From: Bacillus cereus | GTDB taxonomy: Bacteria; Bacillota; Bacilli; Bacillales; Bacillaceae_G | Direction of reading: 5' to 3' | NCBI RefSeq assembly: GCF_002584535.1 | Contig: NZ_NUOT01000005.1 | Location: 1-64,000, forward strand | Length of the DNA: 64,000 nucleotides | Shown: piece after piece, positions 45,570-64,000 of the stretch | Position numbering within the stretch: position 1 is the first letter of the stretch | How the letters are laid out: every line of letters begins with the position of its first letter | Translations under genes and position numbers: made by a program | Notes under the pieces: model-generated | What the model was told of the DNA's origin: nothing | The model's input: the letters and a program-made list of their open reading frames with translations, nothing else | Database searches by the model: none

Positions 45570-46601
45570 ATGAGCCAAAAAGTAAGTGTAATAATACCAG
45601 TTTATAACGTAGAAAAATATATCACTCAGTGCATAGAGTCACTTTTAAATCAAACACTTCAAGAGTGTGAGTTTATATTTATTAATGATGGTTCAACAGA
45701 TAACAGCAGAGAAATAATTGAGAAGTATAAGGAATTAGATGACCGGATTATACTTATCAATCAAAGAAATCAAGGTGTAAGTGTTGCTAGAAATAGGGGC
45801 TTACATTTAGCGGTTGGGGAATATGTTGGATTTGTTGATGCTGATGATTCTGTAAAAAGAGATATGTATAGGGTGTTATATAATTCGGTAAAAGAAAGTA
45901 ATTGTGATGTAGTTATATCAAATTTCGAGAGTGAAACAGAAGGGCATAAGGTAACTACAAAATATCCATTTCCTATAGATACTGTTCTCAAAAGGGATTA
46001 TATAGATCGAGAATTATTACCTTATTTTCTGAAGGCAGATAACTTGAATACCGTTGTAAATAAGATTTATCGAAATAATGTAATCAAGGAAAATGACGTT
46101 AAATTTCCAAATGGAATTGCATTGGGGGAAGATGGAATGTTTAACGTTGAATTCTTTAGTGTTGCAACCCGTATGAAATATATCAATTATGCAGGTTATC
46201 ATTATAGGGAAGTAGCTGGTAGTGCTACTAGAAATATATCGAAAAGAGATTACTTTCAGAGGGCTGTAGAAGTATATACTATGGAATTGCCTAAAATATA
46301 TACTGATAAATTTAATAAAGTAAAAATAGATCAATTAAAATCAATAAAGTTTATTAATAGTGTAATGTCCTATATACACGTTTATTTTACACCGTCTAAA
46401 GATGTAAGTTTCAGTAAGCGGTATAAATACGTAAAAAGTATGATACGAAATAAACATGTGAGAGAGGCACTACCTATATATTATAGTGAAATTTATAGCA
46501 AGCTAGGAAGATATGAGCGGCTAATAATAAATTTAATAAAGAGACAATCAACGGTTGGGTTATATTGCGTCACAGCCTACAGTAGATTTAGAAATAAATA
46601 A
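45570..46601 (+). CDS. GT2 glycosyltransferase (EpsJ-like)
   Basis: A 343-residue GT-A protein with VIIPVYNVEKYITQCIESLL, INDGSTDNS, the GVSVARNRGL loop and the metal site GFVDADDSV. The C-terminal ~100 residues are basic and contain a short hydrophobic segment. GTGATTAGGC is a weak ribosome site before the ATG. It is the first gene after the inserted repeat element, so its transcription depends on reading through it. Confidence 0.85.
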   Translation: MSQKVSVIIPVYNVEKYITQCIESLLNQTLQECEFIFINDGSTDNSREIIEKYKELDDRIILINQRNQGVSVARNRGLHLAVGEYVGFVDADDSVKRDMYRVLYNSVKESNCDVVISNFESETEGHKVTTKYPFPIDTVLKRDYIDRELLPYFLKADNLNTVVNKIYRNNVIKENDVKFPNGIALGEDGMFNVEFFSVATRMKYINYAGYHYREVAGSATRNISKRDYFQRAVEVYTMELPKIYTDKFNKVKIDQLKSIKFINSVMSYIHVYFTPSKDVSFSKRYKYVKSMIRNKHVREALPIYYSEIYSKLGRYERLIINLIKRQSTVGLYCVTAYSRFRNK

Positions 46602-46619
46602 TAGTGAGGGAGTTTAAGT

Positions 46620-47780: not shown

Positions 47781-47794
47781 ATCGAGGTTATATT

Positions 47795-48985
47795 ATGAAA
47801 AAAAATTTATTATTTGTTATGCCTAGTCTATCTGCTGGTGGTGGAGAAAAAAGTCTGGTAAATTTACTATCCCAAATAGATTATCAGTTATATAATGTGG
47901 ATTTATTTTTGTTTAACCATGAAGGTATATTTATGGAATTTGTACCAAAAGATGTACAAATTTTGCCTATACCAGAAGCATATAAGACGTTTACTTTACC
48001 TTTGTTTAAATCGGTCAAAGCATTTTTATTAAAAGGAGAAATATCACTAGCATATAATAGATGTATGTTCACTATGAAGAATAGAATAGGAAAAAATACA
48101 TCGATAAAGGAACAATGCAGCTGGAAATATATTGCTAAGTCTTTAAATGAAATTGAGAAACAGTATGATGCTACTATAGGGTTCTTAGAAAAAACCGCTA
48201 CATATTTTTGTGTAGATAAGGTGAAAGCACATAAAAAAATAGGATGGGTACACATTGATTATAATAAATTAGGAATGGATTCGAACTTTGATGTTTTGTA
48301 CTTCAAAAAGCTAAACAATATAGTTACAGTATCGGAAGAGTGTGCCAACATTCTAAAAAATAGATTTCCTAATCAAAAAGATGAAATAAGTGTTATTTAC
48401 AATATTGTATCACCGACAATGATACATAAAATGGCTAATCAAGAAAATAAGGATGTTTATGTTAAGCAAGATAATGAAATTATTATCCTTTCGATAGGTA
48501 GGTTGCACTATCAAAAAGGCTTTGAAATGGCTATAGAATCCTGTAAGAAATTAATAGATAAAGGATACAAAATAAAGTGGAATATTATAGGTGAGGGGGA
48601 AGAAAGAGAACAACTGACTAATTTGATAAAAGCAAATAAATTAGAAAATAATTTCAAATTGTTAGGGTTAAAATCTAATCCTTACCCGTATATAAAACAA
48701 GCAGATATTTATGCACAGACATCTAAATTTGAAGGGAAATCTATAGCAATTGATGAGGCAAAAATATTGAATAAGCCTATACTTGTTACTGATTTTAGTA
48801 CTGCGAAAGATCAAATTGACAACGAGATAAATGGATTAATTGTAGACATGAAACCAGAGGCTATTGCAGAAGGAATTGAGAGACTTATAAAAGATATAAA
48901 ACTAAAGAAAACATTAGTAAGTAACCTTTCGAAAGAGAAATTAGGAACGGAAGAAGAAATATATAAGTTATATGAAATTCTATAA
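47795..48985 (+). CDS. GT4 glycosyltransferase, second of three paralogues
   Basis: A 396-residue GT-B protein with SLSAGGGEKSLVNLLSQID, IGWVHIDYNKLG, ILSIGRLHYQKGFEMAIESC and PYPYIKQADIYAQTSKFEGKSIAIDEAKIL. It is strikingly like the next gene product over its whole length and more distantly like the one at 44127. TCGAGG is a weak ribosome site. The stop is 12 bases before the next start. Confidence 0.86.
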   Translation: MKKNLLFVMPSLSAGGGEKSLVNLLSQIDYQLYNVDLFLFNHEGIFMEFVPKDVQILPIPEAYKTFTLPLFKSVKAFLLKGEISLAYNRCMFTMKNRIGKNTSIKEQCSWKYIAKSLNEIEKQYDATIGFLEKTATYFCVDKVKAHKKIGWVHIDYNKLGMDSNFDVLYFKKLNNIVTVSEECANILKNRFPNQKDEISVIYNIVSPTMIHKMANQENKDVYVKQDNEIIILSIGRLHYQKGFEMAIESCKKLIDKGYKIKWNIIGEGEEREQLTNLIKANKLENNFKLLGLKSNPYPYIKQADIYAQTSKFEGKSIAIDEAKILNKPILVTDFSTAKDQIDNEINGLIVDMKPEAIAEGIERLIKDIKLKKTLVSNLSKEKLGTEEEIYKLYEIL

Positions 48986-48997
48986 TGGGTGAAGTTC

Positions 48998-50191
48998 ATG
49001 AAAAAAAATATATTATTTATAATGAATAATCTAAATTGTGGTGGGGCTGAAAAAGCCCTAATTTCTTTATTGGAAGTTATAGATTATTCTAAATACAAAG
49101 TAGATTTATTTTTATTTAAGCATGAAGGAATATTTATAAATAAGTTACCAAAAGAAGTCACTGTATTACCAGAACCGATAAAATATAAATATTTTGATAT
49201 GCCCATAAAAAAGTCTTTTACAGAATTAATAAAAATAGGAGATTTTAAAACGATATTTTCTAGAGGGGTATTAGGTTATCTGGCTAAGACAGAAACAAAT
49301 GGGGCTATAATTGAACAAAAAATATGGAAATATATGTCAAACTCGATAGGTAAAATCAATGAGGAATACGATGTAGCTATAGGATTCCAGGAAAAAAACC
49401 CTATATATTTCTGTGTAGACAAGGTAAAAGCAAAAAAAAAGATTGGATGGATACACACGGATTATAACAAATTAGGGATTGATTATAGCAAAGAAAAATT
49501 TTATTTTGGTAAACTGGATCATATAGTGACTGTATCAGAAGAGCTAGTAAATATTTTAAAAGAGAATTTTCCTGAACATGAAAAAAAAATTGGGTGTATA
49601 CATAATATAGTTTCTTCCAGAATGATAAGGAAAATGTCATTAGAGAAAGTTGATTTTAAAGAAGAGAACGATAGAAGTATATCATTAATTTCGGTAGGAA
49701 GATTGGCTAAAGAAAAGGGATTAGATATCTCTTTAGAAGCATTTAATATACTCATAAAAAAAGGGTACGACCTTACATGGTATTTGATTGGAGAAGGCAA
49801 CGTAAGAGAAGAACTTAAAAGAATTATAAAGGAAGAAAAACTGGAGAAAAGAGTAAAATTATTAGGTGTAAAAGAAAATCCATATCCATACATAAAACAA
49901 GCAGATATATATATGCAAACATCTAGATATGAAGGTAAATCTATTTCTATAGATGAGGCAAAAATACTGGCAAAGCCAATATTAATTACTAATTTTGAGA
50001 CAGCTAATAATCATATAAGAAATAATATCAATGGAGTAATTGCAGAGATGACCCCTATGTCAGTGGCAAATCATCTTGAGTTATTAATAAAAGAAGAAAA
50101 GTTAAGAAGTAAGTTTATCGATAATCTCAAGAAAGAAGAATTGGGGACAGAAGATGAAGTGGATCATTTGTATAACTTAATAAATGGTTAA
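48998..50191 (+). CDS. GT4 glycosyltransferase, third of three paralogues
   Basis: A 397-residue GT-B protein: NNLNCGGAEKALISLLEVID, IGWIHTDYNKLGID, LISVGRLAKEKGLDISLEAF and PYPYIKQADIYMQTSRYEGKSISIDEAKIL. ATG 48998 is preferred over GTG 48989, which lies on the GGGTGAAG site. Close similarity to the upstream neighbour in order and wording of motifs points to a tandem duplication. Confidence 0.86.
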   Translation: MKKNILFIMNNLNCGGAEKALISLLEVIDYSKYKVDLFLFKHEGIFINKLPKEVTVLPEPIKYKYFDMPIKKSFTELIKIGDFKTIFSRGVLGYLAKTETNGAIIEQKIWKYMSNSIGKINEEYDVAIGFQEKNPIYFCVDKVKAKKKIGWIHTDYNKLGIDYSKEKFYFGKLDHIVTVSEELVNILKENFPEHEKKIGCIHNIVSSRMIRKMSLEKVDFKEENDRSISLISVGRLAKEKGLDISLEAFNILIKKGYDLTWYLIGEGNVREELKRIIKEEKLEKRVKLLGVKENPYPYIKQADIYMQTSRYEGKSISIDEAKILAKPILITNFETANNHIRNNINGVIAEMTPMSVANHLELLIKEEKLRSKFIDNLKKEELGTEDEVDHLYNLING

Positions 50192-50239
50192 ATATAGCAT
50201 TTAAAAATAAGTTAAATAATACATCCATTGGAGGTCATT

Positions 50240-50799
50240 ATGTTAAGTCGGGTAAAAAAATCCTCAATGGTGAAATTAGGAATTGTATCCCTTGAAGATT
50301 TAACAATAGAAGCGTGTGTGCAAAGAGTTATGAAGATAGGGAAAAATTGTAGTGGATTAGCTGGAAGTACAATTGACTATGCTCATTGTTGGCTAATAGA
50401 AATAGGTGATAATGTTACATTTGCCCCCAAGTATATCTCCTTGCACATGACGCCAGTACGAAACGATATTTAGATTATACAAAAATAGCGAAAATAAAAA
50501 TAGAAGACAATGTATTTGTAAGAGCAAGGGCCTTAATTATGCCTGGGATTACAATAGGGAAAAATGCTATTGTGGCTGTGGGAAGTGTAGTAACAAAATC
50601 AGTTCCAGAAGGGTACATTGTTGGGGGAAATCCAGCGGAAATTATAGGGAAAACAAAAGATTATATCAATAGGCACAAATTAAATCTAGAGACAGCACAT
50701 CGTTATGATAAAAGCTGGACAATAGGTGAGAATATCACGCTAGATATGTGTACCAAAATGTCAGAAGCATTAGGTAGTACTGTTGGATATGTTAAATAA
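50240..50799 (+). pseudogene. hexapeptide-repeat acyltransferase, frameshifted
   Basis: Two adjacent frames together encode one left-handed beta-helix acyltransferase of about 186 residues. The first frame starts at ATG 50240 (GGAGG 5-10 bases upstream) and runs through IEIGDNVTFAP, then leaves the family sequence and stops at 50473. The second frame carries AHDASTKRYLDYTKI, then ARALIMPGITIGKNAIVAVGSVVTKSVPEGYIVGGNPAEIIG, and ends at 50799. The break maps to the CCCCC run at 50424-50428: one extra C would restore APQVYLLAHDAS. This is a real mutation, a slippage switch, or a sequencing error. Confidence 0.85.
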
Positions 50800-50838
50800 G
50801 TATTTAAATTATTTTTACATTGAAAGGGCAATATAAAG

Positions 50839-52020
50839 ATGATATTTCAAATTTTGAGTTGCATTGTAGTTTTTATTATTCTAATGATTATTACCATAGA
50901 TGTAGTACCTGTAATAAAAGATTGGGTACTGAGAATTCATATGGGGAGATATGAGGATAAATCCATATGGAATAACACTATAACGAAAAAAGGGTCTAAG
51001 TGGTTACTAAACACACCAAAAATAAAAGTAACAGACAATACAAGATTAGTTGTATTAGATATGCTGAAAGGAAATTATACGAAAAGTACGATACAACATT
51101 GGCAAGAAGCATCATTAGTATTAGGTTTATCTGAGTATTTAAGACATAATGATGATAAGGAAATGAAATATGAGATTGAAAAATTTTTGAATTCAAAATT
51201 TGATAGTAGTGGTCAATGGCTAGAAAAACCTAAGCATATAGATGGAGCTATACTCGCTTACGCTATTATGAAGTTGGATCATATCGACATAAACAAATAT
51301 AAAAAGGCATTAGATTATACATGGGAAATGATTAAAGATCATATAGGTGAAGACGGCACAGTAGAATATAGGAAGTTTATGAAGAGCTACAGATATGTAG
51401 ATACTATAGGATTTATATGCCCCTTTTTAGTTTGTTATGGTACTAGATATAACGAGGAAGAATGTATAGATTTAGCAGTGAAACAAATTAGGGAGTATGA
51501 AAAGTACGGAATGTTACATAAACATTCGCTACCATGTCATGTCTACAAGATAGAGAATAAAGTCCCTCTTGGATTATATGGATGGGGAAGAGGTCTTGGT
51601 TGGTTTGCTATTGGTCTTATAGATGCTTGGAATGAATTGCCCCAAGATAGTAAATATAAATTATCACTTGAGGAGAGTGTTAAAAGGTTTGCGAAAACTG
51701 CAATGAGTTTTCAACAAGATAATGGAAGTTGGAATTGGACTGTAACTAGAAATGAGAGTAGGCCTGATTCTTCTGCTACAGCTACACTTGGATGGTTTAT
51801 GTTAAATGCTTCAAAGATAGATGAAATTTCAAGTGAATGCATGGATAGTGTAGAGAGAGCTATGCATTATTTAATGCAAGTTACAAGAAAAGATGGAGCA
51901 GTTGAATTTTCCCAAGGAGATACAAAGGATATAGGAGTATATTCTACATTGTTTAATATTCTGCCTTTTACCCAAGGATTTTGTATGAGGAGCATTAATT
52001 TATATTTAAATAAAAATTAA
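50839..52020 (+). CDS. glycoside hydrolase family 88/105-like protein
   Basis: A 393-residue protein with an N-terminal transmembrane anchor (residues 4-24), which would place the enzyme outside or facing the membrane. The body is an alpha/alpha-barrel type with GLYGWGRGLGWFAIGLIDAW, similar to the WGRGNGW motif of GH88/GH105 unsaturated uronyl hydrolases, and SRPDSSATATLGWFML near the C-terminus. Those enzymes remove an unsaturated uronic acid left by a polysaccharide lyase. A hydrolase inside a synthesis operon may trim or release the polymer. GAAAGGGC precedes the ATG. Confidence 0.72.
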   Translation: MIFQILSCIVVFIILMIITIDVVPVIKDWVLRIHMGRYEDKSIWNNTITKKGSKWLLNTPKIKVTDNTRLVVLDMLKGNYTKSTIQHWQEASLVLGLSEYLRHNDDKEMKYEIEKFLNSKFDSSGQWLEKPKHIDGAILAYAIMKLDHIDINKYKKALDYTWEMIKDHIGEDGTVEYRKFMKSYRYVDTIGFICPFLVCYGTRYNEEECIDLAVKQIREYEKYGMLHKHSLPCHVYKIENKVPLGLYGWGRGLGWFAIGLIDAWNELPQDSKYKLSLEESVKRFAKTAMSFQQDNGSWNWTVTRNESRPDSSATATLGWFMLNASKIDEISSECMDSVERAMHYLMQVTRKDGAVEFSQGDTKDIGVYSTLFNILPFTQGFCMRSINLYLNKN

Positions 52021-52223
52021 GTATAAATAATGTATAAGATAGGTTTTTATAAATTAGATGGATATGTTAGGAAGTTAATAATTTTGGTTGAATGAAGTAA
52101 GACATGATTTCCCGCCAGTAGAGTAAAATCTGTGGTGCTTTTTTTATGGGAAAATGAAATAAAAAGGTGAAAGTAATAGATTATATGAGAAGTAAGCAAG
52201 GTTCATACAAAGGATGATTATAA

Positions 52224-53105
52224 ATGAGAATAACAGTATTCACCCCAACGTATAACAGAGGATATATTATAGAGAAATTATACAGATCATTACAGGAGCA
52301 AACGTATAGAAATTTTGAATGGTTAGTCATTGATGATGGATCAAGTGATAATACAGAGGAATTATTTAAAGTGTGGAAATTAGAAGAAAATTCATTTTCC
52401 ATACGATACTATAAAGTTGAAAATGGAGGAAAACATAGAGCAATTAACAAGGGTGTTGATTTGGCTGAAGGAGAAATGTTTTTTATCGTAGATTCCGATG
52501 ATCATGTTACGGAGGATGCATTAGAAAGTATAGTAGAATGGGAAAATAGTTTGGAGGATAAAAAATTATTTTGTGGTGTTTCTGGTAATAGGGGAGGGAG
52601 CAGTAAGGATTTTTTAGGAACAACGTTTAAAGGTGAATATGTTGATGCAACTTCACTTGAACGGAATAAATACAATATAACAGGAGATAAAGCTGAAGCC
52701 TTTTATACCGATATACTAAGGAAATACAAGTTTCATGAGTTTGAAGGGGAAAAATTTATGACAGAGGCTACGGTATGGAATCGGATGGCTTATGAAGGTT
52801 ATAAAATAAGATGGTTTAATAAGACAATATATATATGTAATTATTTAGAAGATGGTTTAACAAAAAATATGAGGGATATATTTGCTAAAAGTCCGAAAGG
52901 TACCGCATATTACATAAATCAGCAAATTGAATTTTATAAGTGTGGCCTGAAAGGGAAATTATCCTATTATAATTTATATTATGATTTTGTTAAGTCTAAT
53001 TTAAATGTAAAGAAAGCTGCAGAGCATTTGGGGATTCATTCGTTTACTTTAATATCAGCTATCTTGTTGGCTACATGTAAAAAATCTATATCAAGAAGGT
53101 TTTAA
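52224..53105 (+). CDS. GT2 glycosyltransferase
   Basis: A 293-residue GT-A protein: TVFTPTYNRGYIIEKLYRSL, IDDGSSDNT, the GGKHRAINKG loop, IVDSDDHV metal site and FEGEKFMTEATVWNRMA. It resembles the protein encoded at 40482. A weak site (AAAGGATG) precedes the ATG. The 203-base gap upstream has no gene. The stop is 1 base before the flippase gene, so the two are coupled. Confidence 0.85.
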   Translation: MRITVFTPTYNRGYIIEKLYRSLQEQTYRNFEWLVIDDGSSDNTEELFKVWKLEENSFSIRYYKVENGGKHRAINKGVDLAEGEMFFIVDSDDHVTEDALESIVEWENSLEDKKLFCGVSGNRGGSSKDFLGTTFKGEYVDATSLERNKYNITGDKAEAFYTDILRKYKFHEFEGEKFMTEATVWNRMAYEGYKIRWFNKTIYICNYLEDGLTKNMRDIFAKSPKGTAYYINQQIEFYKCGLKGKLSYYNLYYDFVKSNLNVKKAAEHLGIHSFTLISAILLATCKKSISRRF

Positions 53106-53106
53106 T

Positions 53107-54654
53107 ATGAGAGTAAAAAATTCCCTAATTAATATATCTGCTGGAATCGGAAATCAAATCATTGTCACATCTTTAAGCTTTATTTCAAGAACCGTATTTA
53201 TCAATAATCTGGGCATTGAATATCTAGGTATAAATGGATTTCTTACTAATATACTTTCTATGCTTTCGTTAGCGGAGGCAGGAATAGGTGCTAGTATAAT
53301 GTACAGTCTTTATAAGCCGGTCGCAGAAAATGATCAAGAAAAAATCAACATACTTATGAGATTGTATCGGAAAGCATATATGGTAATTGCCTTGATTGTC
53401 TTGTTACTCGGTTTGTCCTTAATGCCGTTTCTTGGATACTTTATTAAAGATTCGAATGTTGAAAATATTCATTGGATTTACCTTATATTTTTATTCAATA
53501 CAGTTGCTCCTTATCTGTACATGCATAAGAATTCGTTTTTAAGTGTTTCTCAGAAGGGCTATATTGTAACAGGAATATATTCCATATCTTCAATTGTATC
53601 TGCTTGTCTCAAAATTGGAATACTTCACTTTACAAAAAATTATATTTTATATTTAGTTATCGACAGTATGATAACAGTTACTACTAGCATTGCTTTGGCA
53701 ATCATAGTCAACAGGATGTACCCGTTTTTAAAAGATAAAGTTTCGGGTGTATTAGATGCTGAAACTAAAGATAAAATTGTTAAGAATGTGAAAGCAATTG
53801 TGTTGCAAAACATAGGAAATTACTTAGTATTAGGTACCGATAACATTATCATATCTTCATTTATTAGTGTAGCAGCAGTTGGACTGTATTCTAACTACAG
53901 TATGTTAATAGACATTTGTAGGAATTTTACTTATCAAATTTTTAATAATACATACCATAGTGTAGGGAATTTAGTAGCAAAAGAAAGTATAGAGAAGGTT
54001 TATAGTGTGTATAAGGTCTATATGCTTTTGAATTTTTGGTTATACTCATTCTTCTCTATATTATTATGTATTATAATGGAGCCCTTTATCACTTTATGGA
54101 TTGGATCAGAGTATCTTATGAGTAAAAGTGTGTTGTTTGTATTAGTAATTATTTTTTATGAAAGAGGCATGAGGAACTCCATAACAACTGTGAAAACTAC
54201 AGCGGGTGTTTTTCATGAGGATAGATATGCACCTTTGTTTCAAGCTGCTGTCAACCTAGCTTTTTCTATCGTACTAGTTAAATATCTGGGGATAATGGGT
54301 GTATTTCTTGGTACCCTTGTAAGTGTGATTACTGTTCCTTTCTGGCTTACCCCTTATTTAGTATACAAAAATGTATTTAATAGGCCTGTAATGGATTATT
54401 TCTTAAAATACGCCTACTACGCAGCAATAGGTATAGGAACGTATTTTATTACAAGTTTTGCGAGCAATTTCACGTTATCAAGCAATTTCTTGGAGTTATT
54501 GTTAAAGGGAATCATATGTATCATAGTTCCTAATGTGATTTATATATTGATTTTTCATAAAACAACGGAATTTAAATATTTATTTGGGATTATTAGAGGG
54601 ATTTCACAAAAGTTATTAAAAAAATTTAAGTTAAATAAGGGGATTCCCTCCTAA
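53107..54654 (+). CDS. polysaccharide flippase (Wzx/EpsK-like)
   Basis: A 515-residue membrane protein with about twelve to fourteen hydrophobic helices, of the MOP superfamily that flips lipid-linked repeat units. The N-terminus SRTVFINNLGIEYLGINGFLTNILSMLSLAEAGIG and the EDRYAPLFQAAVNLAFSIVLVKYLGIMGVFLGTLVS segment are typical of capsule and exopolysaccharide flippases. Together with the EpsG-like protein it forms a Wzx/Wzy-type assembly route. The TagGH exporter upstream belongs to the other locus. Confidence 0.88.
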   Translation: MRVKNSLINISAGIGNQIIVTSLSFISRTVFINNLGIEYLGINGFLTNILSMLSLAEAGIGASIMYSLYKPVAENDQEKINILMRLYRKAYMVIALIVLLLGLSLMPFLGYFIKDSNVENIHWIYLIFLFNTVAPYLYMHKNSFLSVSQKGYIVTGIYSISSIVSACLKIGILHFTKNYILYLVIDSMITVTTSIALAIIVNRMYPFLKDKVSGVLDAETKDKIVKNVKAIVLQNIGNYLVLGTDNIIISSFISVAAVGLYSNYSMLIDICRNFTYQIFNNTYHSVGNLVAKESIEKVYSVYKVYMLLNFWLYSFFSILLCIIMEPFITLWIGSEYLMSKSVLFVLVIIFYERGMRNSITTVKTTAGVFHEDRYAPLFQAAVNLAFSIVLVKYLGIMGVFLGTLVSVITVPFWLTPYLVYKNVFNRPVMDYFLKYAYYAAIGIGTYFITSFASNFTLSSNFLELLLKGIICIIVPNVIYILIFHKTTEFKYLFGIIRGISQKLLKKFKLNKGIPS

Positions 54655-54816
54655 TTCGAATCAAAGTGTTATTATATGCTATTAACACGTGTTTTAAGGG
54701 GAAAATTCAAGAGCTATAAGCTATGGAATGAAAGGATCCTTTTTATTGTTAGAGTTCATATACCCAATCTATTTAAGCTATAGAAGCATAATATATAGAA
54801 AAAAGGAAGTGGGAAT

Positions 54817-57237
54817 ATGGACGTAAACTTAAATGCGAATCTTGGGGACCTTAATGATGTAGATGTAACAACAGCATCTCCTACTCATGGTGATGTATTA
54901 ACTTATGATGGCCCAAAAGCACACTGGTCTCCAAAAAAGGTACCAGTTTCAAATGCAGAGGACGTTTCAAATTCATATATATTAGAATTGGTAAGATGGA
55001 ATATTAAAAACGATGGTACCAATTCTGTTGCCACTACAAAGGGGATAAATGATGCTTTGGTTTGGGCTAAGTCCCAAGGATACAATCATGTTATACTACC
55101 GAGCGGCATATATAAGTTGAAAATTGACAATACATCATTCTCGTGTATTGCCATACCAAGCGGTTTACATTTTGAAATGTCGGGAGAGTGTGTCTTACAA
55201 CTGGAAACTAATTCGTCACCCTGGTATCGAGTATTTGATATTAAGGGAGTTAAAAATGTGAAAATTTCTGGTGGGAAAATAGTCGGAGATAAAAAAACAC
55301 ATATTTACGAAATAGGTGTGAAATTTGTAAGAGGAGGAGTGAATACTGACGGTTCATTGAATAATAATCCCAATTTTATCCGTAGTGAAATAGTGGACAG
55401 ATATGAGAATCCTGGGCTCCTTAAAGCTTTTAGGCTATGGTCTATCTCTGGAATAAACACCACAGCATACAGTTTTTATCAATATAAAGATACTGTTGCA
55501 ATTGGCACGCTAGTCGGTTCTAGAACAAACGGTCAATTTGCTCCTGCATCTTCGACTGGGAGAGGTTGGTTCGCTCCAATAGAAGATGCTAATAAAATGA
55601 TTTTTGTTATTGATATTACGTCTTCACCTTTAAGCGATGCCCAAATTGCAAAAATAAATGCAAAAGTGGACAGCCAGAATTACACTCATGAGTGGGGACA
55701 AGGAATAGAAATAAGGGGCTCAAACTTTGTGGAGATAGATTGTGTAGAAATAAGCAATTGTACAGGGGATGCCATTTCAACAGGCTGGTTAGAATATAAG
55801 ATTAATCCAGCTGATTATACACAGGAACAGATGGGTTCGCATATTTACATTCATAACTGTGATATTCATAACTGCAGAAGGCAAGGGATTACTCTCGGTG
55901 GTTCAAATGACACTTATATTTTTGAAAATAAAATTTATTCAATTGGTAAAGCTGATGACGGCATTACAACCGATGGCGTTGCCCCGATGTTCGGAATAGA
56001 TATCGAATCCATGTGGTCTGAAAGTAACATACCGACATGGCGACCTGAACTGAATCAATCGGGGTTTGAATTGAATACTAGAATTTATATTTATAATAAC
56101 TATATTTCTAATAATGCTCGTGGACATTTTGTAAATGCAGACGGCATTCATATAGTTTTGGAAAATAATATATTTGAAGGATATAACATAGGGGGAATTA
56201 GTTCTTATCAGAATAACTGGTATGTCAAATACATTCACAACACTTTCATTGGATGTGAACTCGTTGTGAAAGGGGATAATTTTGTCAATGGAGCTATATG
56301 TAATAACGGTAATATCAAACTGCAGGATATCCGAGGAGCCGTCATTCAAAATTGCCAGATAAAAAATGGTTTATTTTACGGTTCAAGCATCTATGGATAT
56401 TTTGGCAGCCCTACTGTAAATGTCGCCAATGGAATGTTTTCCTATAGTACTCCACATGGAATGGGGAATGGTGCGAAAATATGTTTTGAACAATGGGTTG
56501 GCAAAGTGCCTACTGGAATTAGTGTGGATAAACTCTACTATACGATTAACGTAACGGCAACAAGTTTTCGAGTATCTGAAACATTGAATGGGCCACCAGT
56601 GGTGATAACTGACGCTGGAAAAGTCGGATTTAATATAAGCAGGTATGATTATGGCAGATGCTATATTTCGGACATCACAGTTGAAAGAGAGTGGCGAAGT
56701 GATAATGCGGTAACACAAAACTTTTCAGTGCTTTTGACAGGTGGAGTCATTAAGAATATTACCGTCAAGAATTATGATGTTAATATTAAGCCACCTGCTA
56801 ATTATGGTGGTCGCCCTATTGCTATAGAAGGTCTCATTTTAATAGAAGGGGCCGCAGATTTGGAATGTTGTAACCTTAGTAACGGTAAATTTATAAGAGC
56901 AAAAACAAGCAGAATAGGTGGGGATATATCTTTTGGTTCCAATAATGCCCAATATACGCGAAAAATTAATGCGGATAATTGTTTGTTTCAAAATGTTGGT
57001 ATAAACTTCGAAGGGAATATTGTTCATAGTTGTAACACATTTCTAAATTCTGTTATTAGGAAGACTGATAATCCTGCTGTTTCTATCATTACGCACAGCT
57101 ATTTAGAAGACACTCTTCTTAGTTTACATTGGTTAACTAGGGAAAAGGCGATGACTGTAGTCAAATGTGTATTCAATAATGTATCTAGTGATATAAGCAC
57201 GGCCACTAGATTGATAGATAATACTATCATCAACTGA
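54817..57237 (+). CDS. right-handed beta-helix protein, phage tailspike-like
   Basis: An 806-residue protein without signal peptide. Residues ~8-45 (LGDLNDVDVTTASPTHGDVLTYDGPKAHW broken into the pattern DVD..T.....GDVLTYDG..) resemble a tail-fibre adapter seen in phage proteins. The rest is a pectate-lyase-type parallel beta-helix with many short Asn/Gly/Ile-rich rungs, for example IYIHNCDIHNCRRQGITLGG and ARGHFVNADGIHIVLENNIF. Such folds bind or cut polysaccharides. Catalytic residues cannot be assigned. GGAAGTGGG precedes the ATG and a terminator follows. Lack of a signal peptide in a polymer-synthesis operon is odd: it may act in the cytosol, leave by an unusual route, or come from a phage. 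Confidence 0.78.
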   Translation: MDVNLNANLGDLNDVDVTTASPTHGDVLTYDGPKAHWSPKKVPVSNAEDVSNSYILELVRWNIKNDGTNSVATTKGINDALVWAKSQGYNHVILPSGIYKLKIDNTSFSCIAIPSGLHFEMSGECVLQLETNSSPWYRVFDIKGVKNVKISGGKIVGDKKTHIYEIGVKFVRGGVNTDGSLNNNPNFIRSEIVDRYENPGLLKAFRLWSISGINTTAYSFYQYKDTVAIGTLVGSRTNGQFAPASSTGRGWFAPIEDANKMIFVIDITSSPLSDAQIAKINAKVDSQNYTHEWGQGIEIRGSNFVEIDCVEISNCTGDAISTGWLEYKINPADYTQEQMGSHIYIHNCDIHNCRRQGITLGGSNDTYIFENKIYSIGKADDGITTDGVAPMFGIDIESMWSESNIPTWRPELNQSGFELNTRIYIYNNYISNNARGHFVNADGIHIVLENNIFEGYNIGGISSYQNNWYVKYIHNTFIGCELVVKGDNFVNGAICNNGNIKLQDIRGAVIQNCQIKNGLFYGSSIYGYFGSPTVNVANGMFSYSTPHGMGNGAKICFEQWVGKVPTGISVDKLYYTINVTATSFRVSETLNGPPVVITDAGKVGFNISRYDYGRCYISDITVEREWRSDNAVTQNFSVLLTGGVIKNITVKNYDVNIKPPANYGGRPIAIEGLILIEGAADLECCNLSNGKFIRAKTSRIGGDISFGSNNAQYTRKINADNCLFQNVGINFEGNIVHSCNTFLNSVIRKTDNPAVSIITHSYLEDTLLSLHWLTREKAMTVVKCVFNNVSSDISTATRLIDNTIIN

Positions 57238-57251
57238 ATATGGAAAGAAAA

Positions 57252-57287
57252 AAACCGCTATATTTGTATAAAAATATAGCGATTTTA
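57252..57287 (+). terminator. terminator after the beta-helix gene
   Basis: CGCTATATTT (57256-57265) pairs with AAATATAGCG (57272-57281), flanked by A-rich and T-rich sequence. It lies inside the eps operon, where the EAR RNA could allow read-through to epsL. Confidence 0.75.
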
Positions 57288-57346
57288 TTATTGAGTTTAG
57301 GCGTCTGATCTTCAGGGAACGGGGAAATGTATTTATAACATACTGA

Positions 57347-57493
57347 ATGAAGTTCATAGCAGAATGTAAGTTGCGAATTGATTTCATTTTATACAAGAGT
57401 ATGGTTGAATTAGAAGAATCCCCTAAAGGTAGTTGGAAGGTTATAGCCTCGTTCTGTAGGAAGCGCCTCAAAAAATTTTCGATAGGAGTATAA
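57347..57493 (+). CDS. possible 48-residue leader or gene remnant before epsL
   Basis: An ATG at 57347, directly after a stop, opens 48 codons rich in Lys, Ile and Phe (MKFIAECKLRIDFILYKS...) and ends within the ribosome site of epsL. No good ribosome site precedes it. It may be the tail of a lost transferase gene or chance. Coupling to epsL is possible. Confidence 0.25.
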   Translation: MKFIAECKLRIDFILYKSMVELEESPKGSWKVIASFCRKRLKKFSIGV

Positions 57494-57499
57494 TTACTT

Positions 57500-58096
57500 A
57501 TGAAAAGGCTTTTTGATTTATTCGTTTCTTTGTCATTATCGATGTTGTTTTCATTTCTTATTATAATAGTAGCAGTTTTAGTTAGAGTTAAGCTAGGTTC
57601 CCCTATCCTATTTAAGCAACAACGTCCAGGATTACATGGTAAGCCTTTTTTTCTGTATAAGTTTAGAACTATGACTGATGAGACAGATAGCGAGGGGAAT
57701 ATGCTGCCTGATAATGTAAGACTTACTAAGTTCGGTAAATTTCTTAGAAAATATAGTTTGGATGAGTTGCCACAGTTAGTTAATGTTATAAAAGGGGATT
57801 TAAGTTTGGTGGGTCCTAGACCATTATTGATGGAATATTTGGAGCTATATACAGAAGAACAGGCTAGGCGGCACAATGTAAGACCAGGAATTACAGGGTG
57901 GGCTCAAGTGAATGGAAGAAACGCAATTTCATGGGAAGAAAAATTCGATTTTGATGTGTGGTATGTGAAAAATCGTACTTTTTTTCTTGATATGAAAATT
58001 TTGTTATTGACGGTGAAGAAGGTATCTAAATCGGAAGGCATTAACCAAGTTGGGCATGTAACTATTGAGAAATTTACTGGTACTAAGGACTTTTGA
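57500..58096 (+). CDS. epsL: sugar-phosphate transferase starting the repeat unit
   Basis: Bacterial sugar transferase family, 198 residues. It moves a sugar phosphate from a UDP-sugar to undecaprenyl phosphate at the membrane. One N-terminal helix (residues 5-28) precedes GSPILFKQQRPGLHGKPFFLYKFRTM, SLDELPQLVNVIKGDLSLVGPRP and RHNVRPGITGWAQVNGR, the hallmark motifs. ATAGGAG lies 9 bases before the ATG. The order epsL-epsM-epsN matches B. subtilis, where EpsL, EpsM and EpsN together make and load a diacetamido sugar. Confidence 0.92.
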   Translation: MKRLFDLFVSLSLSMLFSFLIIIVAVLVRVKLGSPILFKQQRPGLHGKPFFLYKFRTMTDETDSEGNMLPDNVRLTKFGKFLRKYSLDELPQLVNVIKGDLSLVGPRPLLMEYLELYTEEQARRHNVRPGITGWAQVNGRNAISWEEKFDFDVWYVKNRTFFLDMKILLLTVKKVSKSEGINQVGHVTIEKFTGTKDF

Positions 58097-58109
58097 GGAG
58101 GTGAAATGA

Positions 58110-58745
58110 ATGCAAATAATCATGATTGGGGCAGGTGGTCATAGTAAGGTTATCCAAGATATTATACTATCATCATATGGGAATTATGAAATTATTGGTC
58201 GATTAGATGATATGTATGAACAATTAAGAGTTGAGGATGGCGTATATTTTGGACCTATTTCTGCAGCTAGAAAATTAATGAATGAACATACAGATGTAAG
58301 GTTCGTGGTAGCTATAGGAAATAACAGAACACGAAAACGAATTATGGAGCAGTTAGAGATTCCCAGTCATCGTTATGTGACGCTTATACATAAGCAAGCT
58401 ATCGTTAGTTTAAGTGCAAAGATTGGAGCTGGTACGGTTATTATGCCAGGTGCAATTGTTAATGCAGATGTTGAAATTGGGAATCACGTTATTGTCAATT
58501 CAGGCGCTATTATTGAACATGATAATAGGGTAAAAGATTTTGCACATATTTCCCCCAATGCTGTGCTTACGGGATCTGTTACTGTAGGAACAGGAGTACA
58601 TATAGGAGTAGGAGCTAATGTAATTCCCAATATTACAATTGGTGACTGGTCCATTATCGGTGCCGGGGCAACAGTAACCTGTGATATTGCAGCAAATTGT
58701 ACAGCAGTGGGCGTTCCAGCTAGAGTAATAAAAAAAGAACTGTAG
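58110..58745 (+). CDS. epsM: sugar O/N-acetyltransferase (PglD-like)
   Basis: A 211-residue protein with a Rossmann-like N-terminal domain (IMIGAGGHSKVIQDII) and a C-terminal left-handed beta-helix (IGAGTVIMPGAIVNADVEIGN and SGAIIEHDNRVKDFAHISP with the catalytic-type His). In the family it acetylates the amino group made by the EpsN aminotransferase. GAGGAGGTG precedes the ATG. The stop is one base before epsN. Confidence 0.92.
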   Translation: MQIIMIGAGGHSKVIQDIILSSYGNYEIIGRLDDMYEQLRVEDGVYFGPISAARKLMNEHTDVRFVVAIGNNRTRKRIMEQLEIPSHRYVTLIHKQAIVSLSAKIGAGTVIMPGAIVNADVEIGNHVIVNSGAIIEHDNRVKDFAHISPNAVLTGSVTVGTGVHIGVGANVIPNITIGDWSIIGAGATVTCDIAANCTAVGVPARVIKKEL

Positions 58746-58746
58746 G

Positions 58747-59928
58747 ATGGTGTTTAAAGTGGTATATTCACAGGAAAAAACAAGAATCTATCTCTCCGCC
58801 CCACATATGAGCGGTAATGAACAAAAATATATAAAAGAAGCATTTGATATGAATTGGATCGCTCCACTTGGTCCAAATGTGGATGCATTTGAAAGCGAGC
58901 TTTCATCTCACGTGGGAGTTCGTGATGCAGCTGCAGTTAGTTCAGGAACCTCTGCTATTCATTTAGCGCTGCGTTTATTGGATGTAGAAGATGGTGATAC
59001 GATATTTTGTTCAAGTCTTACTTTTATAGCAAGTGCAAATCCAATTTTATATTTAGGTGCTACACCGGTGTTTATTGATTCAGAGCCTGAAACATGGAAT
59101 ATGTCACCACAAGCTTTAGAATGTGCATTGCATGATGCAAATGAAAGGGGAATGCTCCCAAAAGCGGTAATTGTTGTAAATCTATATGGACAAAGTGCTA
59201 AAATGGATGAAATTCTCTCATTATGTAATAAATATGAAGTTCCAATAATTGAGGACGCAGCAGAATCACTTGGCTCTTACTACAAAGGTAAGGCGAGTGG
59301 AACATTTGGGAAGTTTGGGATTTATTCGTTTAACGGAAATAAAATCATTACAACCTCAGGTGGAGGAATGCTTGTATCTAATGATGTTGAGGCATTAAGA
59401 AAAGCAAGGTTTTTAGCTACTCAGGCAAGAGATCCTGCTCCACATTATCAACACAGTGTAATAGGATATAACTATCGAATGAGTAATGTTTTGGCAGGTA
59501 TAGGTAGAGCACAGTTGCAAATCCTCCAAGATAGGGTACAGGCAAGAAGAAAAATATTTGATAGATACTATCAAGAATTATCTCATATTCCAGGTGTACA
59601 GTTTATGCCTGAGTTAGAGGATACTTATTCAAATCGATGGCTTACAGTTCTTACTATAGATGAAGAAAAAACAGGAGTATCGATTCAGGAATTACTGAAA
59701 CACCTGGAAAATGAAAATATTGAGGCACGCCCTGTTTGGAAGCCTCTTCACATGCAACCCCTATTTAAGGGAACAACTTATTACCCTCATAGTGATTGCG
59801 AAGATATTGCTAGAAAATTATTTGAAACTGGATTCTGTCTTCCATCTGGATCAGGTATGACAGAAAAAGATCAGACAAGAGTTATTACATGTATCAAAAA
59901 TGCGTTGACAATAAATGTTGGTATATAA
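58747..59928 (+). CDS. epsN: DegT/DnrJ/EryC1 aminotransferase
   Basis: PLP-dependent sugar aminotransferase, 393 residues, which acts on the keto-sugar made by EpsC. Motifs: NEQKYIKEAFDMNWIAPLGPNVDAFE, SSGTSAIHLALRLL, IEDAAESLGSYYKG and the PLP lysine in FNGNKIITTSGGGML (Lys199). The C-terminal RPVWKPLHMQPLF is typical. ATG 58747 begins right after epsM; a GTG at 58759 with GGATGG before it may be the real start. Last gene of the eps operon in this window. Confidence 0.92.
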   Translation: MVFKVVYSQEKTRIYLSAPHMSGNEQKYIKEAFDMNWIAPLGPNVDAFESELSSHVGVRDAAAVSSGTSAIHLALRLLDVEDGDTIFCSSLTFIASANPILYLGATPVFIDSEPETWNMSPQALECALHDANERGMLPKAVIVVNLYGQSAKMDEILSLCNKYEVPIIEDAAESLGSYYKGKASGTFGKFGIYSFNGNKIITTSGGGMLVSNDVEALRKARFLATQARDPAPHYQHSVIGYNYRMSNVLAGIGRAQLQILQDRVQARRKIFDRYYQELSHIPGVQFMPELEDTYSNRWLTVLTIDEEKTGVSIQELLKHLENENIEARPVWKPLHMQPLFKGTTYYPHSDCEDIARKLFETGFCLPSGSGMTEKDQTRVITCIKNALTINVGI

Positions 59929-60462: not shown

Positions 60463-60491
60463 TTGACAATACAATAGTGAAATGATAACCT
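60463..60491 (+). promoter_or_regulatory. candidate promoter of the lasso-peptide cluster
   Basis: TTGACA (60463-60468), exactly 17 bases, then TAACCT (60486-60491) preceded by TGA, which gives an extended -10. The -35 is perfect, the -10 weak. It lies 330 bases before the first cluster gene. The rest of the 890-base gap (59929-60821) is very A+T-rich and I see no gene in it. Confidence 0.5.
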
Positions 60492-60494
60492 GGG

Positions 60495-60520
60495 TTTATA
60501 TTCTTTATAAAGAATATAAA
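60495..60520. promoter_or_regulatory. 26-bp perfect palindrome just after the lasso promoter
   Basis: The 26 bases 60495-60520 read the same on both strands, centred on TTATAA, with half-sites TTTATATTC and GAATATAAA. It starts 4 bases after the -10 box, so a bound protein would block initiation. It is a candidate operator. Confidence 0.6.
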
Positions 60521-60821
60521 TACTTTATTGATATATTAAATTTATCTATTTTTATTTGAATCAACAAACAAATACATAATACTTTTTAGCGAAAATAAGA
60601 AAATTATACCCTTGTTCTTTTTTTGAATATCAAAATTAGAAGGCGAGGGTTTATTTATAAGGTAGATAGCCTGAAAATTTCAACTTTAAAATCTGTTATG
60701 CGGAAACACGGTAGTTTGAGAAAGGATTTTTCTGGTATATAAATAACGTTTTATTGATATATCAGGTAATTATCTTATTTATCGGGTTTGCCCTTACTTG
60801 TTTCGTAGCGGGAGGAAAGAA

Positions 60822-62759
60822 ATGAGCGCAATAGCTGGAATTTATCATTTAAATAGGGAACCCATACCGTTTGAGCATAGCAATGGAATCATGTCAGCTT
60901 TATCTCGTTATCCAGCCGATAGTACCAATACGTGGCACAAGGAAAATATTTTTTTGGGTGCCCATATGAAATGGATAACACCCCAATCTATCAACGAACA
61001 ATTACCTTATTATGATTATGAAAAGCAATTGGTCATAACGGCTGATGCTATTATTGATAATCGCGATGAATTATTTGATAGATTACAAGTGGAACAGGCA
61101 CTTAGAAGGGAGATGCCTGACAGTAAGCTGATTTTATTGGCTTATCAAAAGTGGGGGGAAAATGCGCCGAAATATTTGATTGGCGATTTTGCTTTTATGA
61201 TTTGGGATGAAAGAAAACGCTTACTTTTCGGTGCGCGTGATTTTTCGGGAAGCAGAACATTTTACTTCTTCCGTAATCAAAATCGATTTGCCTTTTGTAC
61301 CAGCATAGGACCACTATTTTCCTTACCTTACGTCGGGAAGGATTTAAATGAGCAGTGGTTAGCTGAATATTTAGCGATACCTAATATGCTTGATACGATA
61401 GATGCTTTTTCTACAGTCCATAAAAATATAGAACAAGTACCTCCTTCTCATACTATTTCTGTAGTCGATGGAAAAGTTAGTATTTCGAAATATGACGTGT
61501 TATTTGTAGGAGAGAAGTTGCATCTCAAATCAAATCAAGAGTATGAAGAGGCATTTCGGGACGTATTTGAAAGTGCAGTGACATCAAGATTGCGTACGCA
61601 CCGTAATGTTGGTTCCCATTTAAGTGGAGGATTAGATTCAGGTGCTGTTGCTAGCTTTGCTGCAAGAGCCTTGCAAAAGGAAAATAAAAAATTATATACA
61701 TACAGCTCTGTACCTGCAGAAGGATTTATTGATTGGACTCGTAGTCATATGGTTGCAGATGAGAAGCCGTTTATCCAATCTACAGTACAGCATGTAGGGA
61801 ATATTACGGATCATTATTTGAATTTCCCAGGGAGAAATTCATTCTCTGAAATTGATGATTGGCTTGATATTATGGAAATGCCCTATAAATTCTTTGAAAA
61901 TTCTATTTGGGTAAAGGGAATTTATGAAAAAGCCCAGCAACAAGGAGTTGGAGTGCTCTTAAATGGAGCGAGGGGGAATTTTACCATCTCTTGGGGACCA
62001 GCTCTAGATTATTATGCAGTTTTACTTAAAAAGTTCAAATGGTTCCAACTTTATCATGAAATCGACTTATACGGTAAAAGTATTGGAGTCAAAAAGTCAC
62101 GAATACTGAAAGTCGTAGGACAGAAGGCATATCCATCTATAAATAACATGTTCTCTCCACAACAGCAATATGAGTTGCCGACGTTAGTCAATCCAGAACT
62201 TGCAAAACGTACTGATGTATTCAACAAACTGGAGGAACATGGTGTTAAAGTAACGGGGGCTTCTATACCTAACATATATGAAATAAGGCAGAAACATTTT
62301 GAGCAGTTAAATTTATGGAATACCACTGGTACAAGTGGTACAAAACTTTCCTTGCGCTATGGCTTGCAGGGGCATGATCCGACGAATGACTTACGAGTAA
62401 TTCGATTTTGTTTATCTCTACCACTCGAACAATTTGTTCAAAATGGCTTAAATCGGGCACTTATCCGAAGATCTACAAAGGGATTGCTTCCTGACAAAGT
62501 AAGGTTGAATCAACGTGTGCGAGGGATACAGGCTGCCGATGTGATTCATCGCATGATTCCTTCATGGAAAATGTTTATCAAGGAACTAAAACAGCTTAGC
62601 ACAGATCCTGTAGCTTCTAACTTTTTTAATATGGAAATCATTAAGAGTGCGATTTTGAAAATTCAAGGAGAACCACAGCCAGAAAACGTGTTTGATCCTG
62701 ATTTTAGAATTTTAATGCGCAGTCTTATCGTTTATCGATTTATCAAGAAATTTATTTGA
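60822..62759 (+). CDS. lasso peptide macrolactam synthetase (asparagine-synthetase-like C protein)
   Basis: Closes the ring between the core N-terminus and an acidic side chain after ATP-dependent adenylation. It has 645 residues. The N-terminal class II amidotransferase-like domain begins MSAIAGIYHLNRE: the catalytic Cys2 of asparagine synthetase B is Ser, so glutaminase activity is not expected, as in other lasso cyclases. The C-terminal synthetase domain has the PPi-loop GSHLSGGLDSGAVASFAARA (about residue 265). ATG 60822 is supported by GGGAGG. The product gene lies 14 bases downstream. Confidence 0.9.
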   Translation: MSAIAGIYHLNREPIPFEHSNGIMSALSRYPADSTNTWHKENIFLGAHMKWITPQSINEQLPYYDYEKQLVITADAIIDNRDELFDRLQVEQALRREMPDSKLILLAYQKWGENAPKYLIGDFAFMIWDERKRLLFGARDFSGSRTFYFFRNQNRFAFCTSIGPLFSLPYVGKDLNEQWLAEYLAIPNMLDTIDAFSTVHKNIEQVPPSHTISVVDGKVSISKYDVLFVGEKLHLKSNQEYEEAFRDVFESAVTSRLRTHRNVGSHLSGGLDSGAVASFAARALQKENKKLYTYSSVPAEGFIDWTRSHMVADEKPFIQSTVQHVGNITDHYLNFPGRNSFSEIDDWLDIMEMPYKFFENSIWVKGIYEKAQQQGVGVLLNGARGNFTISWGPALDYYAVLLKKFKWFQLYHEIDLYGKSIGVKKSRILKVVGQKAYPSINNMFSPQQQYELPTLVNPELAKRTDVFNKLEEHGVKVTGASIPNIYEIRQKHFEQLNLWNTTGTSGTKLSLRYGLQGHDPTNDLRVIRFCLSLPLEQFVQNGLNRALIRRSTKGLLPDKVRLNQRVRGIQAADVIHRMIPSWKMFIKELKQLSTDPVASNFFNMEIIKSAILKIQGEPQPENVFDPDFRILMRSLIVYRFIKKFI

Positions 62760-62773
62760 AGGGAGGTGAAACT

Positions 62774-62905
62774 ATGAAACAAGAATGGCAATCACCAGTA
62801 TTAGAAGTGCTTGATATCAACATGACAATGGCTGGACCTGGAAAACGAATTGTTGACCAAGTGTTTGAAGATGAGGATGAGCAAGGCACACTTAGCCACA
62901 GCTAA
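62774..62905 (+). CDS. lasso peptide precursor (paeninodin/pseudomycoidin-like)
   Basis: A 43-residue precursor, ATG 62774 with GGGAGGTG 6 bases before. The leader (residues 1-19) contains WQSPVLEVLDINMTM: an aromatic-x-x-Pro-x-Leu signal for the B1 protein and Thr18 at position -2, as lasso maturation needs. The predicted 24-residue core starts AGPGKRIVD, so Ala1 can form a 9-residue macrolactam with Asp9. The tail runs QVFEDEDEQGTLSHS, strongly acidic, and ends in Ser, the residue phosphorylated in paeninodin-type peptides. Core limits follow family rules. Sequence resembles paeninodin (AGPG start, Asp9), from memory. Confidence 0.9.
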   Translation: MKQEWQSPVLEVLDINMTMAGPGKRIVDQVFEDEDEQGTLSHS

Positions 62906-62942
62906 TGCACTAATATTTAAATGAGATTTATATGCTTTACAG

Positions 62943-62979
62943 CCCTTATATAGTTTAACAACGGTATAAGGGTTTTTTC
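62943..62979 (+). terminator. terminator between precursor and kinase genes
   Basis: CCCTTATA (62943-62950) pairs with TATAAGGG (62965-62972), then TTTTTT. It lies 37 bases after the precursor stop. A leaky terminator here would keep precursor mRNA in excess over the modification enzymes. Confidence 0.85.
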
Positions 62980-63012
62980 TAATCAATTTTTCAACTAGGT
63001 GGAGTGAGAAAG

Positions 63013-63942
63013 ATGATACATACTGTAAAGAAAGTGGTTTACAAAGCCTTCGGATTAACCCTATTAAGTGAGATTCCTCTGCCGGAATTGCCTCAATTAA
63101 ACAATTATGAAAATGAAGTAGACGTCAGAATCGAAACTGCAGATTTGTCCAAGTTATGGAAGGAGTTATCCTCCAAAAAGTCAGCATTCGTAGTCGAAGA
63201 AGAATTAGTTATGTTTCAAATCCCCGAAACAGCCACGTTTTGTATTCAAAATGGAGAAAAAATTATCGTTTCACCTATGGAAGGATCTGACCAAGATAAG
63301 ATTAGGCTTTATATTCTTGGAACTTGCATGGGCGCATTATTGATGCAAAGAAAAATACTTCCCTTGCATGGAAGTGCAATAGCCATCAATGGGAAGGTAT
63401 ATGCTTTTGTAGGAAGATCGGGAGCTGGAAAGTCAACTCTTGCATCAGCTCTCTTGAGCAAGGGATATCAACTTTTAAGTGATGATGTAATTGCGGTATC
63501 TCTTTCTGAGGATAATATTCCTTTTGTTACACCCTCTTATCCACAACAAAAGTTATGGAAAGAAAGTCTTGATCAATTTGGAATGGAAACAACGCATTAT
63601 CAGCCTTTATTTGAAAGAGAGACCAAATATGCTGTACCAGTGTCGTCAAGCTTTTTCAATGAGCCGTTACCGCTAGCGGGTGTATTTGAATTGGTGAAAA
63701 CGGAAAATGAGAATGTTGAAATTCAGCGTATTGAAGGACTAGAAAGGTTACGTACATTGCTACGCCATACATATCGAAATTCATTAATCCCACGATTGGA
63801 GATGATGGAATGGCATTTTATGAACTCTACAAATATTGTAAATAAGGTGGAGATGTTTCAATTAAGGCGCCCTATTTCAAAGTTTACGGCGCATGATTTA
63901 GTATCCACAGTCCTAGAGTCTTTAAAAGAGGAGGAAAAATAA
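63013..63942 (+). CDS. HPr-kinase-like lasso peptide kinase
   Basis: A 309-residue protein from ATG 63013 (GGTGGAG upstream; GTG 63004 also possible). It has an N-terminal domain of unknown motif, then the kinase core: ILPLHGSAIAINGKVYAFVGRSGAGKSTLASALL with the P-loop GRSGAGKST (about residues 133-141) and LLSDDVIAV, the Walker-B-like metal site of HPr kinase. In lasso clusters such proteins (PadeK, ThcoK) phosphorylate the C-terminal Ser of the precursor. The stop overlaps the next start (TAATG). Confidence 0.88.
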   Translation: MIHTVKKVVYKAFGLTLLSEIPLPELPQLNNYENEVDVRIETADLSKLWKELSSKKSAFVVEEELVMFQIPETATFCIQNGEKIIVSPMEGSDQDKIRLYILGTCMGALLMQRKILPLHGSAIAINGKVYAFVGRSGAGKSTLASALLSKGYQLLSDDVIAVSLSEDNIPFVTPSYPQQKLWKESLDQFGMETTHYQPLFERETKYAVPVSSSFFNEPLPLAGVFELVKTENENVEIQRIEGLERLRTLLRHTYRNSLIPRLEMMEWHFMNSTNIVNKVEMFQLRRPISKFTAHDLVSTVLESLKEEEK

Positions 63943-64000
63943 TGATTACTAACAAAAAAATTTCATTAAATAGTTTTATCGTACAGGGGCAAGAAAATGT
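63942..64000 (+). CDS. PqqD-like leader-binding protein, first codons only
   Basis: ATG 63942 overlaps the kinase stop and is preceded by GAGGAGG. Only 19 codons are visible, MITNKKISLNSFIVQGQEN and one partial. Position after the kinase and the N-terminal pattern fit a B1 (RRE domain) protein, which hands the leader to the peptidase. It is truncated by the window edge. Confidence 0.6.
   Translation, partial: MITNKKISLNSFIVQGQEN

Follow-up and report, generated by a model that had tools for sequence, protein, structure and literature searches.

Paeninodin from Paenibacillus dendritiformis (kinase PadeK, cf. ThcoK) is a lasso peptide whose cluster combines a discrete B1 protein with a His-Lys-Asp-Asp kinase that places phosphate on the C-terminal serine (PMC9266682), and pseudomycoidin from Bacillus pseudomycoides (PsmK, PsmN) is likewise a phosphorylated lasso peptide with a kinase. 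Clusters for linear polyphosphorylated peptides (LPPs) share with these an HprK-like kinase, a recognition element (RRE) for ribosomally synthesised and post-translationally modified peptides (RiPPs), a nucleoside triphosphate (NTP) transferase, an exporter and a place beside polysaccharide loci, and differ in having no cyclase, a YxxP leader and a SipW-like leader peptidase (Popov 2026, PMC13381572). The same report already places lasso clusters of the present class within polysaccharide loci, so this position is not new. Here we analysed 64,000 nucleotides of Bacillus cereus DNA (contig NZ_NUOT01000005.1, positions 1 to 64,000, hereafter the window), the right-hand end of which carries a paeninodin-type cluster with the gene order C-A-K-B1, directly downstream of an eps-type exopolysaccharide gene run (Table 1).

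From computed features of the window and its relatives, we propose that the cluster is an operon for a phosphorylated lasso peptide of the paeninodin family, and that this operon class is switched on together with the biofilm matrix; we put the probability of the two together at roughly 0.72. Judged from sequence, SinR probably controls the class as part of its matrix regulon. The initial annotation of this DNA was right about the class of the cluster and its context, and overlooked that the cluster promoter holds a candidate SinR-type operator.

SinR-type boxes upstream of the cyclase gene

The published SinR site reads GTTCTYT, and the inverted operator layout considered here is that of an oligonucleotide bound by B. 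subtilis SinR at 300 nM (PMC3163267). The B. subtilis regulon (epsA-O, yqxM-sipW-tasA) and the loci of relatives have in common the GTTCTYT boxes, their inverted pairing with a 2-bp gap, the promoter position and the eps target; the proposed further target here, however, is a RiPP operon. Relatives were collected by a kinase alignment search of a genome collection, from which the best 80 of 219 were kept; with two plasmid loci and the window, this gave 83 loci.

Seven of the 93 regions upstream of C were shorter than 80 nt and were excluded. Among all 7-mers counted in the remaining regions, AAAGAAC/GTTCTTT ranked third (63/86 regions, 6.8 expected); other high-ranking words belonged to the beginning of C itself, and the −35 word GTTGACA was also high. 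A shuffle test gave 122 box matches compared with 10.8 expected. Both counts took in 40 nt past the annotated start, which later box counts exclude. In non-coding stretches of up to 300 nt, with the window left aside, GTTCTYT was found before C in 61/84 regions (62/86 with the window), before Wzz/epsA in 24/26, before K in 10/80 and before other genes in 58/350.

These counts bear on the alternative that the cluster makes a stand-alone antimicrobial or signalling peptide, lying beside eps by chance or island formation, with operator-like sites that are noise in AT-rich promoters. Noise of this kind is hard to reconcile with the controls, as the reversed word (9/84), three scrambled words (2, 10 and 8 of 84) and the Spo0A and CcpA patterns (0/84 each) were no more frequent before C than before other genes. 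The position of the box is also constrained: where a region held both words, the box began 30–50 nt after the start of TTGACW in 41/54 cases, with 7.0 expected at random. The relaxed inverted form occurs in 24 regions of relatives (both samples, the second described below), 18 with TTGACW within 120 nt and six without, and its distance to TTGACW is 35–45 nt in all 18, one of which has an additional TTGACW at 109 nt. A site so close to the start of transcription would suit a repressor. Antimicrobial activity is common among lasso peptides, which favours the stand-alone alternative, as do the imperfect site of the window itself and the patchy distribution of the clusters, for which the Discussion of Popov 2026 proposes extensive horizontal transfer (PMC13381572). 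Set against these are the strict operator's absence from 23/23 SinI-less genomes (below) and the neighbourhood, with at least one eps-family gene in 71/83 loci and at least two in 61/83, a raw count made without a random-locus control. On balance, we consider a stand-alone peptide improbable.

In the window, the position that the initial annotation gave as the left end of the cluster, 60463, is not a gene; it is the first base of a promoter-like TTGACA, ahead of a cluster that is itself real. The promoter was missed by a promoter consensus scan, presumably because its second hexamer is poor. The candidate operator, the centre of a 26-bp perfect palindrome, lies 37 nt downstream of this sole TTGACW before C. 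Because 11 of 100 shuffles contain an operator of this form, its weight comes from its position, and the combined pattern of TTGACW, 25–40 nt and operator matched once in the window and in 0 of 100 shuffles. A single exact box further downstream (60614) is weak by itself, since about 0.3 would be expected in a stretch of that length; the whole window holds 32 SinR-type boxes compared with 20.4 expected. A SinR link in this strain is thus likely, if weaker than the class-wide link.

Table 1. Positions of the promoter, operator and gene features in the window.
Position	Strand	Feature	Basis
33480..59928	+	Eps-type exopolysaccharide gene run, directly upstream of cluster	Pfam/NCBIfam-type matches; operon status predicted
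60463..60468	+	−35-like TTGACA of cluster promoter; weak −10 (TGATAACCT region, by eye)	Sole TTGACW in 60001-60830
60495..60520	.	26-bp perfect palindrome TTTATATTCTTTATAAAGAATATAAA around TTCTTTATAAAGAA (60501-60514), candidate SinR-type inverted operator	Pattern scan
60614..60620	+	Single exact SinR-type box GTTCTTT	Word scan
60822..62759	+	C, lasso peptide isopeptide-bond-forming cyclase (asparagine-synthetase type), 645 residues	ATG 60822, stop 62759
62774..62905	+	A, precursor, 43 residues; WxxP leader, Thr at −2; core AGPGKRIVDQVFEDEDEQGTLSHS at 62831-62902	NF033524
62941..62978	+	Hairpin then U tract between A and K, probable attenuator	Folding energy
63013..63942	+	K, HprK-like peptide kinase, 309 residues; H119, K140, D157, D158	Alignments
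63942..64000	+	B1 (RRE), first 19 codons, cut by window end	Resemblance to N-termini of relatives' B1

Association with SinI and the possible reader of the operator

SinI was scored as the PF08671 domain in the genomes of the relatives. Such proteins were present in 29/29 and 38/40 genomes of the kinase set, which, as one genome was in both batches, gives 66/68; ten loci of the set fall outside this count. Of 14 named control genomes, B. subtilis was the only one with PF08671. The strict inverted operator GTTCTYTNNARAGAAC was found at 40 sites in 22/29 SinI-bearing genomes (reversed control, four sites) and in 0/23 SinI-less genomes, largely one clade (reversed control, three sites). Ten sites precede Wzz (nine promoters, with a short Wzz-like fragment among the targets) and six precede a lasso C gene (five promoters). 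The other assigned targets are PglF-like genes (two), a beta-helix gene beside eps (one), SinR-like genes (two), LPP-type kinases (two) and a SipW-type peptidase (one).

A second sample was drawn through the precursor model and comprised 40 of the 398 genomes of the class of G005, 37 of them new, with fixed 300-nt regions upstream of C. SinI was present in 16 of the 37, and the box was found in 13/16 SinI-bearing compared with 2/21 SinI-less regions (Fisher, 1.9e-5). Collapsed to 75% clusters and counting any box, the contrast is 8/11 to 2/5, weaker than the raw count. An earlier count of this sample (13/19 SinI-bearing, 0/10 SinI-less) was dropped, as SinI-less regions had been lost to spurious overlapping open reading frames and two genomes were reused; L120 and L153 (the genomes of L007 and L065) and L117, L123 and L124, which have no C, were excluded ahead of the count given here.

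Several observations weigh against SinR control. In the window, the outer G of the SinR consensus is replaced by A in both arms of the palindrome; TTCTYTNNARAGAA occurs once in 64 kb, with 0.11 expected and 11/100 shuffles containing it, and three times when one mismatch is allowed (1.98 expected), which is no clear excess. The −10 of the cluster promoter is poor, and no TTCTYT or ARAGAA word was found in the window's eps promoter region (32781-33500). The exact box is absent upstream of C in 23/84 regions of relatives, and it is present in four of the nine testable loci that have no eps-family genes. The strict operator was searched in 29 of about 81 known SinI-bearing genomes and was missing from seven of the 29; 24 of its 40 sites could be assigned to genes of the eps, RiPP or sin kind, leaving 16 with no assigned target. 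Finally, 16 of the 21 SinI-less regions in the second sample form one 75% cluster (one clade), and two SinI-less regions do have the box.

Alternatively, genuine operators could serve a different XRE-type regulator (SlrR, or a SinR paralogue specific to the cluster) that answers to a trigger of its own; peptide and matrix would then not be produced together. Genomes with any SinI-domain match have 2–11 of them, and SinR-like genes stand beside some clusters. For one of these proteins (L065, 793-1137) the best NCBIfam model is SlrR, at 69.9 bits and far under the cut-off of 250, while the nearest solved protein is SinR itself (1b0n, E 6.9e-25). The same box before Wzz/EpsA, in the 24/26 regions noted above, means that an alternative reader should see eps too, and we hold this explanation to be unlikely. 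SinR/SinI-like open reading frames lie inside 22/82 of the relatives' loci, and in L001, a lasso cluster on a Priestia plasmid, two annotated SinI genes and a SinR-like open reading frame share one stretch (9865-10182, 18584-18874); here the regulator may travel along with the lasso cluster.

Under SinR control, a SinR-type repressor would sit on the inverted operator near the transcription start until SinI, or a SlrR-type partner, removed it, and C-A-K-B1-B2-N-D would then be transcribed along with eps. B1 would bind the WxxP leader, K would add one or more phosphates to the C-terminal serine of the linear precursor, B2 would cut after Thr-Met and C would close Ala1 to Asp9. Where present, N would add a sugar to the phosphoserine, and D would export the peptide into the matrix. 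The chemistry proposed for this strain is carried over from work on paeninodin, pseudomycoidin and LPPs. Co-expression reported in P. alginolyticus, where pbaB1 and lppB increase alongside an eps gene (PMC13381572), is in favour of SinR matrix control. A wider proposal would have the SinR matrix programme produce the phosphorylated lasso peptides of Bacillota, which would act in the matrix, their phosphoserine (phospho-sugar) tail coupling them to the exopolysaccharide of the neighbouring operon; we regard it as doubtful.

Coupling to the matrix could instead be by attachment, with the phosphoserine tail glycosylated and the peptide linked to, or priming, the neighbouring polysaccharide. The nucleotidyltransferase family (NTP_transf_5) is found in 67/83 loci, PsmN-dependent hexoses on pseudomycoidin are described in a review (PMC9266682), and EpsL-, EpsM- and EpsN-like sugar genes lie directly upstream of the cluster in the window. 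Deletion of lppN, however, had no effect on the LPP in a heterologous host (PMC13381572), and 12/83 loci have no eps-family gene in the stretch examined, some of these being short contigs. In the window, N would lie past the right-hand end. We consider attachment distinctly unlikely.

The assignment of the class to SinR control appears to be new, the cluster itself being of a known kind. A literature search, the coverage of which mostly left out subscription papers, found no link between SinR and lasso peptide, paeninodin or RiPP clusters, and the main text of Popov 2026 makes no mention of SinR or SinI (PMC13381572). Its Discussion gives the role of paeninodin as unknown and a link to biofilm as untested speculation, and the native P. 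alginolyticus products were not found by mass spectrometry (PMC13381572). With a SinR-type operator throughout the class, repression in planktonic cells becomes a concrete candidate reason for these products having gone unseen. The operator also suggests a simple route to activate the clusters, by loss of sinR or gain of SinI, and gives the peptide a testable role in the matrix.

Cluster genes and the eps neighbourhood

The genes bear out what the initial annotation read from this region, a lasso peptide cluster with a peptide kinase at the edge of the eps region, with C, A and K co-directional and followed by the start of B1, all within 60822-64000. The cyclase carries a PP-loop, SGGLDSG, at residue 268. 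It scores 402 bits with the NCBIfam lasso cyclase model NF033535, under the model cut-off of 525, and 80.1 bits with Pfam Asn_synthase, over the cut-off. The precursor matches NF033524 (‘paeninodin family lasso peptide’) at 64.3 bits, with a cut-off of 27; this match, the HprK-like kinase and the C-terminal serine agree with the predicted phosphorylated class. As also predicted, the 24-residue core begins AGPG, with Ala1, Lys5, Arg6, Asp9 and a C-terminal serine. Its calculated lasso mass is 2595.220 Da, to which each phosphate would add 79.966. Membership of the LPP clusters was considered and rejected, as a cyclase is present and the leader reads WxxP instead of YxxP.

Matches of K to HPr-kinase-type models fall under the curated cut-offs. 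Its His, Lys and two Asp residues are invariant across the alignments, and 115 of 119 kinases (two from genomes counted twice) fit the His-Lys-Asp-Asp motif pattern, the other four deviating in one loop residue only. The closest relative's kinase, from genome contigs, is 63% identical to K. The start codon of B1 overlaps the stop of K (TAATG), and its 19 codons read MITNKKISLNSFIVQGQEN, similar by eye to the N-termini of relatives' B1, such as MITNQNISLNYEVTQGQGN in L004. The window ends inside B1; B2, nucleotidyltransferase (N) and exporter (D) genes would be expected past this point, because the order in relatives commonly runs on as B1, B2, N, D. Across the 83 loci, the families are present in 82 (K), 80 (C), 78 (D), 73 (B1), 70 (B2) and 67 (N), so that most relatives have the N family, as does the pseudomycoidin system (PsmN). 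The hairpin between A and K (−14.3 kcal/mol, z −5.0) has comparable counterparts in 17/75 A-K gaps, the window counted, compared with 2/375 mononucleotide shuffles, and is a probable attenuator that would favour A over the genes downstream. A near-match search among plasmids found none, and a viral scan with the kinase gave no confirmed match.

The eps-type run is co-directional with the cluster, which lies directly 3′ of it, as the placement at the edge of the eps region had implied. The run contains Wzz, an AAA_31 ATPase of the BY-kinase kind, PglF-like, glycosyltransferase, EpsG and pyruvyl transferase genes, and ends with EpsL-, EpsM- and EpsN-like genes (57500-59928). A frequent arrangement in relatives is C-K-B1-B2-N-D followed by Wzz, BY-kinase and PglF. 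Family labels derive from Pfam matches of representatives or of the window's own genes, and the rmlB-, galU/rmlA- and Ugd-like labels from record annotation or inspection by eye. Within the run, a 515-residue protein (53107-54654) has no Pfam match, and a large beta-helix-type protein (54817-57237), under the Pfam cut-off, belongs to a family found in 14/83 loci.

Precursor peptides and further loci

A leader-pattern search in 81 loci gave 102 precursors. The C-terminal residue is serine in 100 and cysteine in two (L029, 9683-9814; L074, 9752-9883), both of the latter in kinase-bearing clusters, so that the phosphate acceptor there is absent or altered. Relative to the paeninodin core, the window core differs in a Lys5-Arg6 ring and an EDEDE tail. 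Both features are present as first described, and both are less special than was thought: an acidic run of at least four residues occurs in five of the 102 precursors (L021, L026, L058, L080 and the window), positions 5 and 6 are both Lys/Arg in two (L030 and the window), and in two (L061 and the window) the basicity of the ring and the acidity of the tail both equal or exceed those of the window peptide. The window peptide thus belongs to a small subgroup with acidic tails, and its ring is unusual without being unique. The sharply two-faced molecule of the first description would follow from charge only, and the subgroup as a whole shares such a tail.

LPP-type kinases (cluster 18) or a SipW-type peptidase lie near SinR-type operators in L175, L188 and L179, and in L022, L032, L054 and L074. 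LPP clusters may therefore share SinR-type control; we do not claim it for LPPs as a class, because the box lies within 700 nt upstream of LPP-type kinases in 4/11 loci. Among the strict-operator sites with no assigned target, the one at L156 1501 lies 40 nt ahead of a small open reading frame, pilin-like by eye.

Two cyclases stand in tandem ahead of one kinase in 13/83 loci (L004, L007, L015, L021, L023, L026, L041, L044, L046, L048, L068, L071 and L078), mostly with one AGPG-, QGPG- or AST-type precursor and one larger Cys-containing precursor, for example NGPGNANADCF. We read these as loci that would make two lasso peptides with one shared kinase, B1 and B2. In the SinI-less genomes of L116, L119 and L138, arrays of 3–4 or more similar precursors are found, with cores that end DADLYNPS or NPGS.

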